Part shown: positions 41,474 to 46,164 of the stretch, piece after piece
How the letters are laid out: each line of letters opens with the position of its first letter
Numbering within the stretch: position 1 is the stretch's first letter
Origin: Tenacibaculum mesophilum
GTDB lineage: Bacteria > Bacteroidota > Bacteroidia > Flavobacteriales > Flavobacteriaceae
DNA: 64,000 bases
Assembly: GCF_003867075.1 (NCBI RefSeq)
Contig: NZ_CP032544.1
Span: forward strand, 2,598,001 to 2,662,000
Direction: 5' to 3'
Made by a program: the position numbers and the translations under genes
Notes under the pieces: generated by a model
What the model was told of the DNA's origin: nothing
The model's database searches: none
The model's input: the letters and a program-made list of their open reading frames with translations, nothing else

Positions 41474-43735
41474 TTAAGCTTCTATTTCTGCTGATTTTGT
41501 ACTAATATGAAACTCTTCGTAGGTTTCTAGTAAACTCATTAATCCAGAAACTAAATCTTGTGTCTCTATTAAAATACTAAAGTATAATGTAGTATTTTTT
41601 GGACTTGTTTCGTCTGTTCTAATACGATCTACTTGTTTTTCAATAGATTTAGATACATCCTTTAATAATTCTTTCTTTTCATTAATAATATGCTCTAAAT
41701 TATCAAAGCTTCTATTTTCAAAAGTATCTCCAATATCAGTTAATAACTTAGAAAGTGTATTATCAATACTCTTAAGATCTTTAATTTGCCCTTTTTTAAG
41801 GTGTTTGTGATTGTTGTTAACGTGCTTATAAGTAGCTCTAGATATATAACTAATAGACTGAGCAACGTCTTGCAAATACCCTAAAATTAAAATATAAAAC
41901 CTACTTGCTTGTACGGAAGTATCGTCTAACGACTTAATAAAATAGAAAACTCCGTCTTTTAAGTTATCGATTTCATCGTTTAACTTAGTAACGTGCTTAT
42001 CAGTTTTACGTAATTTTATTAAATCGTGAGTAGCAAGATCTTTTACAACGCTTGAGTATAATTTGTTAATACGATGAGCAACACCAGCAATATGATCTGA
42101 GCTTTCTTCAATCACTCCGTTAATAGTGATTAATTCTGCTCTTTCCATATGTACTTGTTTCTTTTCTTCTTTAGATTTCTTTCTGTGTTGTAATGTGTTT
42201 CTTGCAATTAAAAGAGCAACCACCAATAACAATACAGGAATCATTACCATATCCCAGCTAATTAAATAAGCTACTAAAGCAGCAGTTAAGAAAGCTGTAA
42301 TGGCTGTTAAGAACCATCCTCCAATAACATTAATTACACCAGCAACTCTATAAACGGCACTTTCACGCCCCCAAGCTCTATCAGCTAAAGAAGTACCCAT
42401 TGCTACCATAAACGTAACATAAGTAGTTGATAAAGGTAACTTCATAGAGGTTGCAATAGAAATTAAAATACCAGCAACAATTAAGTTTACAGATGCTCTT
42501 ACTAAATCGAAAGCAGGCATTTCATACGTTTTGTCTTTAGGTAACTCAATTACAGGTTTTTGAAACTTAGAATCTATAAAGTTTAAAGTTTTCTTAGGTA
42601 CAATAAAACTAACAACCGCATTAATTCCCATAGCACTTCGTACTACAATTCTTGATAATGGATTTGGTTGAAACTTTTCATGCCCATCTCCTTGACGTGA
42701 TAAGTCAATCCCAGTTTTAATAACATTTCTCGCTTTACTAGAAGTCCACAAAGTAACCACCATAATAGCTCCAGCTAACAATAATAACCATACGTTAGAA
42801 GGTACTTTTTTAGCTAAAATCCCCATAGAAAAAGCATCAGGAGCAACACCAGATACTTCCCAAGCTTGGTATGAGTTCCAAGCAGCAATTGGTACACCAA
42901 TAAAGTTTACTAAATCGTTACCAGAGAAAGCCATAGCTAAAGAGAAAGTACCAATACCAATAATTAATTTTAAAATATTAACTTTTAAAAACTGTATTAA
43001 TATATGAGATACTACACTCCAAAAAATAAAGCTTCCAGTAATAATGAGCAATGTATTTCCTTCAATTAAATGTTTAACATCACTATAAAAAGGTGTTCCT
43101 TTCATCCCTTTTATAATTATGAAATAAGTAATTGCAGTAATAGCAAAACCACCAAATAAAGAGTTGATATAGGTAGGTCTTTTCTCAAAGTTAAATGAAT
43201 AAATTAAACGAGAAAAAAACTGTACTATAGCACCAACAGAAAATGCTACTACAACAGAGAGTAGTATACCATTTATAATTTGAACTGCTTTTTTATGATT
43301 TATATAATTCCATATATCAGAAATTGAGTGTGAATCATTAGCAGATATTTTAATTAACGAAATGCAAACTGCGGCTCCTAATAATTCAAATACAATAGAA
43401 ACAGTAGTTGATGTAGGCATACCCAATGAATTAAAGATATCTAATAGTAAAATATCAGTAATCATAACTGCCATAAAAATAAACATGATGTCTTGAAACA
43501 TAAACATGTTAGGATTAAATATCCCCTTACGCGCAACTTCCATCATTCCGCTTGAAGTAACTGCTCCAAAAAATACTCCAACACTCGCAATTATCATAAT
43601 ATTTCTTACTTTAATTGCTTTAGAACCGATTGCTGAATTTAAAAAGTTTACAGCATCGTTACTAACTCCAACAACCAAGTCTACAATAGCTAAAACAGCC
43701 AAAGCGACTAGCATCAAAATATATGGATCTCCCAT
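41474..43735 (-). CDS. pit: PiT-family inorganic phosphate transporter fused to a PhoU-like domain
   Basis: The 753-residue protein has about 12 membrane helices. They carry the PiT signature twice: GVSNDAVNFLNSAIGSKA (from about 23) and AFSGNDLVNFIGVP (about 269). The last 230 residues are a soluble helical domain of the PhoU/DUF47 type (from about 520). It imports phosphate with H+ or Na+. Many PiT systems use a separate DUF47 protein; here it is fused. A -7 box (TAAATTTG, 43760-43767) and a Pho-box-like repeat (43787-43804) lie upstream, after the porin gene. Confidence 0.9.
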   Translation of the reverse strand: MGDPYILMLVALAVLAIVDLVVGVSNDAVNFLNSAIGSKAIKVRNIMIIASVGVFFGAVTSSGMMEVARKGIFNPNMFMFQDIMFIFMAVMITDILLLDIFNSLGMPTSTTVSIVFELLGAAVCISLIKISANDSHSISDIWNYINHKKAVQIINGILLSVVVAFSVGAIVQFFSRLIYSFNFEKRPTYINSLFGGFAITAITYFIIIKGMKGTPFYSDVKHLIEGNTLLIITGSFIFWSVVSHILIQFLKVNILKLIIGIGTFSLAMAFSGNDLVNFIGVPIAAWNSYQAWEVSGVAPDAFSMGILAKKVPSNVWLLLLAGAIMVVTLWTSSKARNVIKTGIDLSRQGDGHEKFQPNPLSRIVVRSAMGINAVVSFIVPKKTLNFIDSKFQKPVIELPKDKTYEMPAFDLVRASVNLIVAGILISIATSMKLPLSTTYVTFMVAMGTSLADRAWGRESAVYRVAGVINVIGGWFLTAITAFLTAALVAYLISWDMVMIPVLLLVVALLIARNTLQHRKKSKEEKKQVHMERAELITINGVIEESSDHIAGVAHRINKLYSSVVKDLATHDLIKLRKTDKHVTKLNDEIDNLKDGVFYFIKSLDDTSVQASRFYILILGYLQDVAQSISYISRATYKHVNNNHKHLKKGQIKDLKSIDNTLSKLLTDIGDTFENRSFDNLEHIINEKKELLKDVSKSIEKQVDRIRTDETSPKNTTLYFSILIETQDLVSGLMSLLETYEEFHISTKSAEIEA

Positions 43736-43807: not shown

Positions 43808-45010
43808 TTAAAGGTGTATGTCTACCTGTAATCTATACATTAATTGATTAGTAGCTGTCGCTATATCTAAGTAACTAATGTCGGTTTGTACTTTTAATTT
43901 ATGACCAACAATATACTTTGATAATCCTATTGTATATTGATTTTCAGTTCCTTTTCCTGTGATTTTTTTATCTAAAGAAATATTAGTAAAACGACCAGAT
44001 ATTTCCCAGTTTTTAGAAAACAAATATCCTGATTGAAGGTTTAAACCACTTCCTACTTGTACAATTTCTCCAGTAAGTGTGCCGTCTGAATTTTTTGCAA
44101 CAGGATCTTTTGCATCTCTGAATGAATATTCTCCCATAAAAGAGAATCCCTTGTATTTAAACATAGCATCCATAAAAAAGGTTGATATGTTTGTTTGATA
44201 GTATCCTTCATCATTAACCATATAAGTACCTTGGTTACTTCTAGTTTTTACGGCATTGTTATTAAAGTCGTAACTCATACCAATAGCAAGTTTAGGTGTT
44301 TGTTCTCTTTTTAAGTCACCACCTACATAATCTCCTTTACCTTCAAACTTTCCAAAAGGTAAAAGTTCTAGATGAGCGGTATATTGATGTCCACCTAAGT
44401 TTCCTACAGTAACATTTCTTCCTTCACCTTGAGAAAAGGCTAGTGCTTCTTTTACAATAAACTTGTCAGATAAATTAAAATGGTGTTTTAATTGTACTCC
44501 CATATCTCTATCAATATTAAAACGGCTGTTTAATAGAGAGCGATCTACTAATTGCATATCACCTGAAGAAATAATACGCTCACGGTTGCCAGGTAGTTTG
44601 GTTTGCCCAAACCATAATTCAAAATTTTGAAAGAAATTCCACTTTATAACAGCATCTAATATATATCTTGGTGCATTTCCTGTGTGTACAGAAGCGCCAC
44701 TAATATCTCTATTAGATAACCCAAGCTCCATTTTATATTTTAATTTAGGGGAAAAAGCAAATCCTTTAAATTTTAAACGAGCTCTTCTTACTAACATTGA
44801 AGATGTTGGGTTATATAAACCATCTTTGTTAGAATCCCATTCGGCAGTTGCTAAGAATTGCATTCTGGCACTCATTTTCATAGACCAAGTACTATCTTTC
44901 CCTATGATATTAAATAAGCCATTACCAAATTTTGAGTCTTTTCCTTGTTGTGCATATATATGCGTCAACATAAATATACTTACAGCTGTAAGTATTTTTT
45001 TGTAATACAT
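43808..45010 (-). CDS. Phosphate-selective porin O/P family outer-membrane protein
   Basis: The 400-residue protein has a signal peptide (about 1-20, THIYAQ) and the OprO/OprP-type barrel. Typical features are SARMQFLATAEWD, SMLVRRARLKFKGFAFSPKLKYKMELG and LWFGQTKLPGNRERIISSGDMQLVDRS. The family includes the Pseudomonas phosphate and polyphosphate porins. A PiT phosphate transporter gene lies 72 bases downstream on the same strand, which supports a role in phosphate entry. The leader directly before the ATG contains one arm of a 20-bp inverted repeat and is complementary to a predicted small RNA. Confidence 0.85.
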   Translation of the reverse strand: MYYKKILTAVSIFMLTHIYAQQGKDSKFGNGLFNIIGKDSTWSMKMSARMQFLATAEWDSNKDGLYNPTSSMLVRRARLKFKGFAFSPKLKYKMELGLSNRDISGASVHTGNAPRYILDAVIKWNFFQNFELWFGQTKLPGNRERIISSGDMQLVDRSLLNSRFNIDRDMGVQLKHHFNLSDKFIVKEALAFSQGEGRNVTVGNLGGHQYTAHLELLPFGKFEGKGDYVGGDLKREQTPKLAIGMSYDFNNNAVKTRSNQGTYMVNDEGYYQTNISTFFMDAMFKYKGFSFMGEYSFRDAKDPVAKNSDGTLTGEIVQVGSGLNLQSGYLFSKNWEISGRFTNISLDKKITGKGTENQYTIGLSKYIVGHKLKVQTDISYLDIATATNQLMYRLQVDIHL

Positions 45011-45039
45011 TAAGGATAATTTATTAGTTTTTGTCGAGA

Positions 45040-45073
45040 CAAATTACTAACCCTAATGTTAACTTAAAGTTAA
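45040..45073 (-). promoter_or_regulatory. Porin promoter region with Pho-box-like repeat
   Basis: Read on the minus strand: TTAACTT (45073-45067), four bases, TTAACAT (45062-45056), four bases, a weaker GTTAGTA, then a near-consensus -7 (TAATTTG, 45046-45040). Heptamers recur every 11 bp. The transcript would start at about 45034, inside the left inverted-repeat arm. Confidence 0.5.
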
Positions 45074-45082
45074 GCAAATATT

Positions 45083-45110
45083 AAAAAAACTGCCTTGTTT
45101 TCAAGGCAGT
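45083..45110 (-). terminator. Minus-strand intrinsic terminator upstream of the porin gene
   Basis: A 9-bp perfect stem with an AAAA loop is followed on the minus strand by a T-run; the other side is not T-rich. It ends the predicted small RNA or readthrough from the metallophosphoesterase gene, and insulates the porin promoter. Confidence 0.82.
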
Positions 45111-45181
45111 ATATGGTAAGTCAAATAAATAGTCGACAAAAACTAATAAATTTATATTGACCATACACCTCAAGTTAGAGG
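45083..45181 (-). ncRNA. Predicted small RNA, antisense to the porin leader
   Basis: A minus-strand -7 box (TACTTTTG, 45187-45194) is followed by a 5' hairpin (ACCTC with GAGGT, 45167-45182). A stem closes by TATGGT with ACCATA (45160-45165 and 45112-45117). A strong terminator completes it (ACTGCCTTG, AAAA, CAAGGCAGT at 45089-45110, then six T). The loop of the middle stem contains the 20-base arm 45133-45152, a perfect complement of the porin leader. Size would be about 99 nt. Function is inferred: it could block ribosome access to the porin mRNA. Confidence 0.45.
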
Positions 45182-45186
45182 TAATT

Positions 45187-45194
45187 CAAAAGTA
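45187..45194 (-). promoter_or_regulatory. -7 box (TACTTTTG) for the predicted small RNA
   Basis: An exact TAnnTTTG match on the minus strand with no protein gene directly behind it. The first structure downstream is the small-RNA fold. No clear -33 TTG is seen. Confidence 0.4.
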
Positions 45195-45258
45195 TTTCTC
45201 TTTTTTAATGTAAATATTAAGTGTAATTTAATAAATTGTTATATGATGTAACACCTGA

Positions 45259-45279: not shown

Positions 45280-46164
45280 TTAAATGTAGTTAGTTATTTT
45301 TTTAGGTCCTTCAAGAACTGTTCTTGTTATCTGCATGGTACCATCTTTATTAGTAATTACATGCCATTTAATAAGAGTTATTTCATTGTTTTCAATTTCT
45401 AAACCAGTAATGCATCTTGGGTGTACACAACTACCATCGTTAAAATGTGGAAGCTCGTTTTCTGATGGAAATCGAGGACGGTGTGTGTGTCCTGTAACAA
45501 TCATTTGGTTATTATTGTTTTTAATCCATTTTTCCAAACGTTTCTCTACCTTTATGAGCTCTTTAAAGTTTTGAGCGGGACTTGTAGGGTCTTTAATTCC
45601 ATGTATTTGTAGTGGTCGCCATAGTAAACGAACTAAAAACCTACTTAATTTCCAAAAAGTATAGTTAAACCAATCTGCTTGATGACCGTGAAGTAAAAAA
45701 ATAGATTTCCCATTTTCTTGTATCAATTTAATTGCTTCTGAAAAGGAAGCATTGGGCATTAATTCTTTCTTTTTTCCGTCAATGGTATCGTAATAAGAGT
45801 TAAAGTTTTTAGCAACGTTTTTAGGTTTTCTGTAATTCATATCATGATTCCCCCAAATAAAATGTAGTTTGTTTTGTTGATGAAACTTTTGAAGTAATAA
45901 GTAGATGTTTTTATTTGCATTGAAAATATTTGCAAATTTATTTTCCCAAAGCTCATCACCATCTCCTAATTCTATATAAGTAAATTCTTTTTGTAAATAT
46001 TGAGATAATGCATAGTGATATATTTTTCGATTGTGAGCAAAATCATCAGCAAAACTGTTATCACCTCTATGGCAATCAGAAAATAAAATGTATTTAGAAT
46101 CCTTGTTTAAAGGTAGTTCTTTTGCTTTCTTAAAAGCTTTGGTTATCCTATGTTTTGAAAACAT
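45280..46164 (-). CDS. Metallophosphoesterase (LpxH-like fold)
   Basis: I take the ATG at 46164 (MFSKHRITKAFKKAKEL, 294 residues), because the 18 residues from the upstream ATG at 46218 look non-homologous. The metal motifs are complete: SDCHRGD, GDGDELW, WGNHDMNY, HGHQADWF and TGHTHRPRF (GHTH). The family includes UDP-2,3-diacylglucosamine hydrolase and other phosphoesterases. An insertion after HGHQ (FWKLSRFLVRLLWRP) suggests a membrane-touching surface. Its place next to phosphate genes may point to release of phosphate, but lipid A or another substrate is equally possible. Confidence 0.8.
   Translation of the reverse strand: MFSKHRITKAFKKAKELPLNKDSKYILFSDCHRGDNSFADDFAHNRKIYHYALSQYLQKEFTYIELGDGDELWENKFANIFNANKNIYLLLQKFHQQNKLHFIWGNHDMNYRKPKNVAKNFNSYYDTIDGKKKELMPNASFSEAIKLIQENGKSIFLLHGHQADWFNYTFWKLSRFLVRLLWRPLQIHGIKDPTSPAQNFKELIKVEKRLEKWIKNNNNQMIVTGHTHRPRFPSENELPHFNDGSCVHPRCITGLEIENNEITLIKWHVITNKDGTMQITRTVLEGPKKITNYI

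Follow-up and report, generated by a model that had tools for sequence, protein, structure and literature searches.

The stretch of DNA analysed here (hereafter the window, 64,000 nucleotides of Tenacibaculum mesophilum) carries on its minus strand, in the order of transcription, a metallophosphoesterase gene (46218-45280), a gap of 269 nt between the end of this gene at 45280 and the porin start at 45010, a porin gene of the Porin_O_P family (43808..45010; PF07396, Pfam E 4.2e-13) and a gene for a PiT-type phosphate transporter (41474..43735; PHO4, PF01384, Pfam E 1.3e-31), which starts 72 nt past the porin gene. The porin is 87% identical over 246 residues to that of a Tenacibaculum locus (L119). 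The gap is devoid of protein genes, as the initial annotation had it: there is no ORF of at least 50 aa between 45010 and 45280. It contains the predicted gene of a small RNA (sRNA) of about 100 nt (45083..45182, minus strand), and sRNA, porin and PiT lie in tandem, all on the minus strand.

The predicted sRNA and its seed

The predicted start of the sRNA is deduced from a -7 promoter-like box and its predicted end from a terminator. The box, TACTTTTG (45187..45194, minus strand), agrees exactly, as had been claimed, with TAnnTTTG, the -7 consensus of Bacteroidota. The window has 49 TAnnTTTG boxes on this strand, and the box is thus weak evidence by itself. No TTG was found 17-23 nt upstream of the box at 45187-45194; a degenerate TTAA-type repeat with 11-bp spacing lies upstream of it (45203..45219, minus strand). 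Three minus-strand elements make up the predicted fold: a 5' hairpin, P1 (ACCUC...GAGGU; 45167..45182), a middle hairpin, P2, which would present the seed (45111..45166), and an intrinsic terminator (45083..45110). The first two had been described from the outset and both are found in the predicted fold of the 100-nt RNA. The terminator, ACTGCCTTG-AAAA-CAAGGCAGT followed by a T run, has a helix of 9 pairs (45110-45089), a 4-nt loop and a T tail, and the fold of the region 45083-45120 has z = -6.3, in line with its earlier description as strong. The whole 100-nt sRNA folds at -30.5 kcal/mol (z = -6.0) and none of 200 shuffles was equally stable. A terminator belonging to the metallophosphoesterase alone was rejected: this gene lies upstream of the sRNA in 15 of 59 loci (L039-L097), where the porin follows the RNA. 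At the gathering threshold, Rfam 15 has no match in the window and none in nine related loci. The best weak match, RsaOG (RF01775), aligns with the 3' part of the sRNA at 22.6 bits, where the gathering score is 50 (E 0.2), and was treated as chance; the matches being sub-threshold only, a known Rfam family was rejected.

The seed (45133..45152, minus strand; conserved core GUUUUUGUC at 45135-45143) is the perfect complement of a target site in the porin leader (45018..45037, minus strand; core GACAAAAAC at 45027-45035), at positions -27 to -8. This 20-nt complementarity, the central claim of the initial annotation, is a perfect inverted repeat and the sole one in the window among those of at least 14 nt with arms 40-250 nt apart. 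The longest such repeat in 100 first-order Markov sequences was 16 nt. The match between seed and leader is beyond chance. The dimer of the sRNA with its own leader gains -18.6 kcal/mol. The seed had been placed in a single-stranded loop. This holds for UUUGUC, which forms an open 6-nt loop, but the rest is predicted to lie partly in a short apical stem (UAGUU/GACUA). Similarly, the RNA had been called antisense to the porin leader: complementary it is, but it is no overlapping antisense, since sRNA and target lie in tandem on the same strand. A cis-encoded antisense RNA, which would occupy the strand opposite its target, was therefore rejected. So were a mobile element with terminal inverted repeats, as the genome has no other full-length copy, and a second copy of the target in the genome, where the 47 matches at E<=10 are nearly all short and the one that we examined (L004) falls within the final codons of a coding sequence.

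Occurrence of the sRNA and conservation of its pairing

Our data are sequence comparisons throughout. We drew the genus, family, order and class samples evenly from larger groups and filtered more strictly where the covariance model was used (genus, order and class). The genomes are related, and counts of sequences are thus not counts of events. Among 26 clear same-genus porin homologs, including the window, 24 have the sRNA and two lack it (L015 and L021). A covariance model, R1, was built from 24 same-genus sRNA sequences, one of them from the window, where the model matches 45082-45186. At E<1e-5 it finds the sRNA in 76 of 146 same-genus genomes, 24 of the 76 being the model's own sequences, in a single copy each at that level. 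A porin lies directly downstream of the sRNA in 75 of these 76 genomes, one of these porins being broken (L096). G080 has the sRNA without an adjoining porin, and elsewhere only a porin fragment of 58 residues. G019 (93% complete) has kept the leader, with one core change, and no sRNA was found in it.

The family sample comprises 199 genomes, nearly one per genus, of which 112 have a porin match at E<=1e-40, 103 of them close (E<1e-130). R1 was searched in the window and in 99 of the 102 other close-porin loci (L299, L358 and L359 were omitted, as were nine distant porins). It matches the sense strand at E<=0.01 in 78 of the 99 other-genus loci (79 of 100 with the window) and has no such match in the remaining 21. 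A combined scan for seed and leader presupposes complementarity, and its results count for spread only: the matches listed come from Winogradskyella, Algibacter, Aequorivita, Arenibacter, Tenacibaculum, Polaribacter, Muriicola, Eudoraea, Xanthomarina and others, with L118, L127 and L132 looking like chance. Among the 80 matches listed, 70 lie beside a porin call and 69 of these 70 have a terminator between seed and leader.

Beyond the family, R1 matches 14 of 296 genomes in the order scan and 4 of 295 in the class scan (own genome included). Eight matches lie outside the family, four of which were examined. The seed was not seen in L417, L418 and L419. In L415, from G603 in another family of the order, an sRNA-like hairpin-terminator at ~1520-1670 has the seed AGTTTTAGTC. 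Its duplex with the leader of the next gene is predicted at -20.6 kcal/mol, and the predicted product of that gene, 257 aa or longer, resembles no Pfam family convincingly. Judging from L415, the sRNA module may extend beyond the porin and the family.

Seed and complementary leader occur together in 74 of 79 loci, and the 9-bp core GACAAAA(A)C / G(U)UUUUGUC is paired in all of these 74 genus loci, in keeping with the complementarity and terminator that the initial annotation expected of relatives. The five loci outside this pairing set are varied: L015 (same genus) has neither sRNA nor complementary leader, L021 (same genus) has a leader with one core change and no sRNA, L034 and L035 (other families) have neither seed nor complementary leader, and L096 (G139) has a broken porin gene, a mismatched sRNA terminator and a decayed leader core. 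The lengths of the core runs agree throughout the 74, with T5/A5 in 71, T4/A4 in three and no discordant case. When leaders were shuffled among genomes, the observed pairing was reached in none of 5000 trials (column 9 of the genus pair table is a filler that raises the observed and the shuffled counts by the same 74). The nearest relatives of the three T4/A4 genomes are T5/A5 (82-88% porin identity) and the T4/A4 genomes are only 69-73% identical to one another, which argues for three separate joint deletions. Joint base swaps within the core, from A-U to U-A, are found in L079 (GTC/GAC) and, in another genus, in L336 (GACTAAAAC/GTTTTAGTC). The three joint deletions and these two swaps are the clearest separate events of compensatory change in the predicted duplex.

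One-sided changes of the core number 17 in sRNA-bearing loci (L021 and L355, which are without sRNA, and L087 are excluded from the count), and 14 of them retain G-U. These are not 14 events, since 11 are the same C to U at core position 9. The other three (L341, L345 and L353, from three genera) have an A6 leader facing a T5 seed and are scored as core mismatches. Outside the core the pairing fades: of the 74 genus loci, 60 are still paired at column 14 and 40 at column 16. Among the 16 double changes in columns 1-14, six are unpaired, none of them in the core. New complementary stretches beyond the core appear in L332, where ACGATTATC pairs with GATAATCGT, and in L333, L327, L322 and L294. 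Duplex length across loci ranges from 9 to more than 20 base pairs. A perfect leader match of at least 12 nt is found in 56 of 103 family loci versus 10 of 2060 shuffled controls (six further family loci in this search are without porin match). Duplex energies could be compared over 82 of 104 loci; in the other 22 no terminator was found or the DNA upstream was too short. The sRNA is absent from a few of the 82. The mean is -20.5 kcal/mol with the own leader versus -17.8 kcal/mol with swapped ones, a value as low being reached in none of 10,000 permutations, and the own leader ranks first of 82 for only 7 sRNAs.

The hairpins of the sRNA also covary. In a MAFFT alignment of 24 sequences, 41 cells are changed on both sides versus 17.8 in shuffles, and the covariation score is 0.213 versus 0.142, with none of 500 shuffles as high in either measure. 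Two other measures are weaker: 12 pairs changed on both sides versus 8.3 (18 of 500 shuffles as high), and 32 further pair types versus 30.4 (159 of 500). In the same alignment, paired cells amount to just 60% in P1, to 78.9% in P2 (helix 2), with five pairs changed on both sides, and to 95.8% in the terminator (helix 5), with two such pairs. The covariance analysis of this gap proposed in the initial annotation thus reveals hairpins that covary and a pairing of seed and leader held by compensatory changes.

Such inverted arms might also arise for reasons foreign to RNA pairing, as sites where a protein binds DNA or as a repeat homogenised by template switching. In L276 a perfect inverted repeat of 32 nt spreads from seed and leader into the adjacent promoter region, a pattern that template switching would give by copying one arm onto the other, and the identity of 11 of the 14 G-U-compatible changes is also in agreement with this idea. 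Yet G-U compatibility, kept in 14 of 17 one-sided core changes, is relevant for RNA only, the seed lies within a partly compensated RNA hairpin 5' of a terminator, and the pairing persists where the arms are about 3 kb apart, as described below. We regard an origin of the arms without a function in RNA pairing as highly improbable.

Separation of the sRNA from its target

In two genera, represented by G246 and G269, the RNA is encoded apart from the transcript of its target. The distance from seed to porin start is 3148 nt in G246 and 3193 nt in G269, and the intervening genes, which by Pfam encode a transporter of the sulfate permease family and a carbonic anhydrase, are on the opposite strand. 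Since the neighbours are the same in both genera, the separation may have been one event. The RNA of G246 is found by R1 (E 0.0054). That of G269 is missed by the model at E<=0.5 and was found with a 13-letter seed pattern. In both, the hairpins 3' of the seed have weak T tails. Each RNA pairs with its own porin leader, at -19.5 kcal/mol in G246 and -22.3 kcal/mol in G269, versus -16.8 and -16.2 kcal/mol with the leader of the window and -17.8 and -19.8 kcal/mol when the leaders are exchanged between the two genera. The pairing has thus been kept by an RNA lying some 3 kb from the porin behind genes of the opposite strand, which argues for action in trans.

In the window, the RNA adjoins the porin and is contiguous with the message that it would control. 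The tandem order on one strand also fits a single porin transcript with a long leader, in which the terminator would be conditional and the 20-nt helix would fold over the start region upon read-through. The 203-nt read-through transcript does fold with the long helix, at -52.8 kcal/mol (z = -6.0). But this contiguity is lost in G246 and G269, where the opposite-strand genes make a single read-through leader a poor explanation for a pairing that was kept, and a promoter-like box stands immediately 5' of the porin leader in 74 genus loci. In the window this is the -7 box TAATTTG (45040..45046, minus strand), identified from the sequence and from the comparison of promoters in the genus loci. 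An attenuator acting in cis is very unlikely in our view.

An RNA acting in trans could have its main targets elsewhere, the porin leader being a sponge that titrates it. In G000 and G022 a 12-nt match, GACAAAAACTAA, precedes a transglycosylase (SLT) gene, and G017 has an identical stretch, which would be in line with this. However, the leader-type pattern of GACAAAAACTAA followed by ATG has 46 matches in 39 genomes, the porin locus included, versus 66 for the reversed control, and further targets were rejected on this count. Moreover, the sRNA decays along with the broken porin gene in L096. We give the sponge hardly any credence.

Two kinds of genes preceded by GACAAAAACTAA deserve mention. 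The site directly 5' of the transglycosylase (SLT domain) gene, at 1501-1523 of L252 (G000:C1:1377381-1377403) and in L230 (G022), is a possible second target. The motif also stands 5' of a gene in G003, G020 and G011 (L231, L232 and L236) which, recognised from its sequence, we take to encode ribosomal protein L13. This latter element is probably unrelated, since G003 and G020 are without a strong R1 match.

Promoters, translation and a possible role for the sRNA

Upstream of the porin -7 box lies a direct repeat, TTAACTTTAAGTTAACAT (45056..45073, minus strand), a candidate PhoB-like site by its 11-bp spacing, since repeats so spaced fit the PhoB type. In 62 of the 74 genus loci the seed is preceded, at a distance of 34-70 nt, by a TTTG; these anchors were chosen by script and some are visibly mis-anchored. 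With TTTG as the anchor, TTAA-n7-TTAA occurs in 24 of 62 sRNA promoters versus 55 of 74 porin promoters, AACATT in 26 of 62 versus 60 of 74, and TTAACA in 5 of 62 versus 73 of 74. The TTAA repeats of the sRNA and porin promoters are in one register, which suggests a common activator; that it is PhoB is a guess. The motif resembling the box is not enriched in the genome, with 11 matches versus 11 for the reversed control, and neither phoB nor pst was found near such sites among the 8 of 12 ORFs (at least 150 aa) scanned with Pfam in one 16-kb region around two sites. Membership in a Pho regulon on the basis of this motif was rejected on these two grounds. In L410 (G000:C1:2668500-2684500), box-like repeats precede a gene of the TonB-receptor type and one for a secreted-looking protein of 650 aa that belongs to no Pfam family, and genes for an iron-dependent repressor and a ZIP transporter adjoin them. 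An OprP gene of Flavobacterium johnsoniae, of the same Pfam family, shows no phosphate induction (PMC8115612), orthology to our porin not being assumed. In Bacteroides fragilis, two genes with the annotation polyphosphate-selective porin O respond to phosphate, one up and one down (PMC3547664).

Translation in F. johnsoniae, of a group without Shine-Dalgarno (SD) sequences, is stimulated by adenines at -12, -13, -3 and -6 (PMC6847099). In our data, position -12 or -13 falls within a run of adenines in 43 of 73 genus leaders and 40 of 78 family leaders, and the commonest genus leader has its A-run at -14 to -10 (35 of 73). The leader of the window has it at -22 to -18, not at -14 to -10, and a block of the ribosome would thus be less direct in this genome. 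Since the seed covers the A-run used in translation initiation, repression is the likely outcome of the pairing.

We consider it probable that the locus encodes a dedicated sRNA that acts in trans and blocks translation of the porin. An independent gene upstream of the porin-PiT pair, on the same strand, would yield an RNA, some 100 nt long and bounded by its own terminator, that displays a U-rich seed in a hairpin loop. Pairing would begin at GACAAA, close to where the porin mRNA is predicted to start, and zip along the short A-rich leader. The A-run, on which Flavobacterium ribosomes rely in place of an SD sequence, would then be hidden and porin translation would drop, and that of PiT, on the same mRNA, may drop too. 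We infer that the RNA is transcribed and silences the porin, perhaps PiT as well, as the initial annotation proposed.

The same RNA and the same pairing could instead activate the porin, by shielding the 5' end of its mRNA from decay, as FasX does when it stabilises the ska mRNA in streptococci. The duplex would indeed form just where the porin mRNA is predicted to begin, in the segment that separates the -7 box from the start codon, and conservation of the pairing is neutral as to the sign of the effect. But the duplex reaches -8 here, comes nearer to the start codon in many relatives and covers the A-run of initiation, which should hinder ribosomes. Stabilisation of the message seems to us unlikely.

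Returning to repression, one activator may drive both promoters, whose boxes share a register, and the sRNA would then be a brake within the porin's own induction. In its fullest form, this would be a family-wide and essentially single-target sRNA in an incoherent feed-forward loop, where a PhoB-like activator would drive both promoters, the A-run would be masked, the phosphate-type porin would be limited and pairing in trans would have been kept after the separation of the two genes. This more elaborate scheme is tentative, and it is made slightly less likely by the sRNA promoters, which have the shared box only in part.

Several known systems resemble the one proposed here. In Enterobacteria, MicF and MicC are trans-encoded sRNAs that repress porins by pairing at the translation start region, and GcvB masks C/A-rich translation enhancers in many targets. 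Like GcvB, our predicted sRNA pairs with an A-rich, enhancer-like stretch upstream of the start codon, whereas it has a single evident target locus. With MicF, MicC and NcS25 of Burkholderia (PMC10117139), it shares the design of a stand-alone short RNA that pairs with a porin message. It differs from them in that its target adjoins on the same strand and in that the pairing spans nearly the whole predicted leader, in a group without SD sequences. Closer in phylogeny are the Rfp sRNAs of Flavobacterium psychrophilum, such as Rfp18, independent transcripts from the same family (PMC9723704). This Flavobacterium transcriptome added 85 new RNAs, and the word 'porin' is absent from the main text (PMC9723704). 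None of the 14 R1 matches in the order scan comes from the 12 scanned genomes of genus g147, which by guess is Flavobacterium. Our literature search, where broader queries were judged on top-ranked results, found no description of this sRNA. What is new is thus the tandem, single-target and SD-less setting of a putative member of an otherwise known type, the trans-encoded sRNA that shuts down a porin.

To our knowledge, the action of sRNAs on messages without SD sequences is little explored in Bacteroidota. If our interpretation is true, the masking of the A-run is the counterpart, in SD-less messages, of the masking of the SD sequence. With one RNA, one obvious target, many genera and natural compensatory mutants, this system would make SD-less translational control readily testable. 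It would also reveal, in these marine bacteria, a post-transcriptional brake on an outer-membrane porin with a possible phosphate role.
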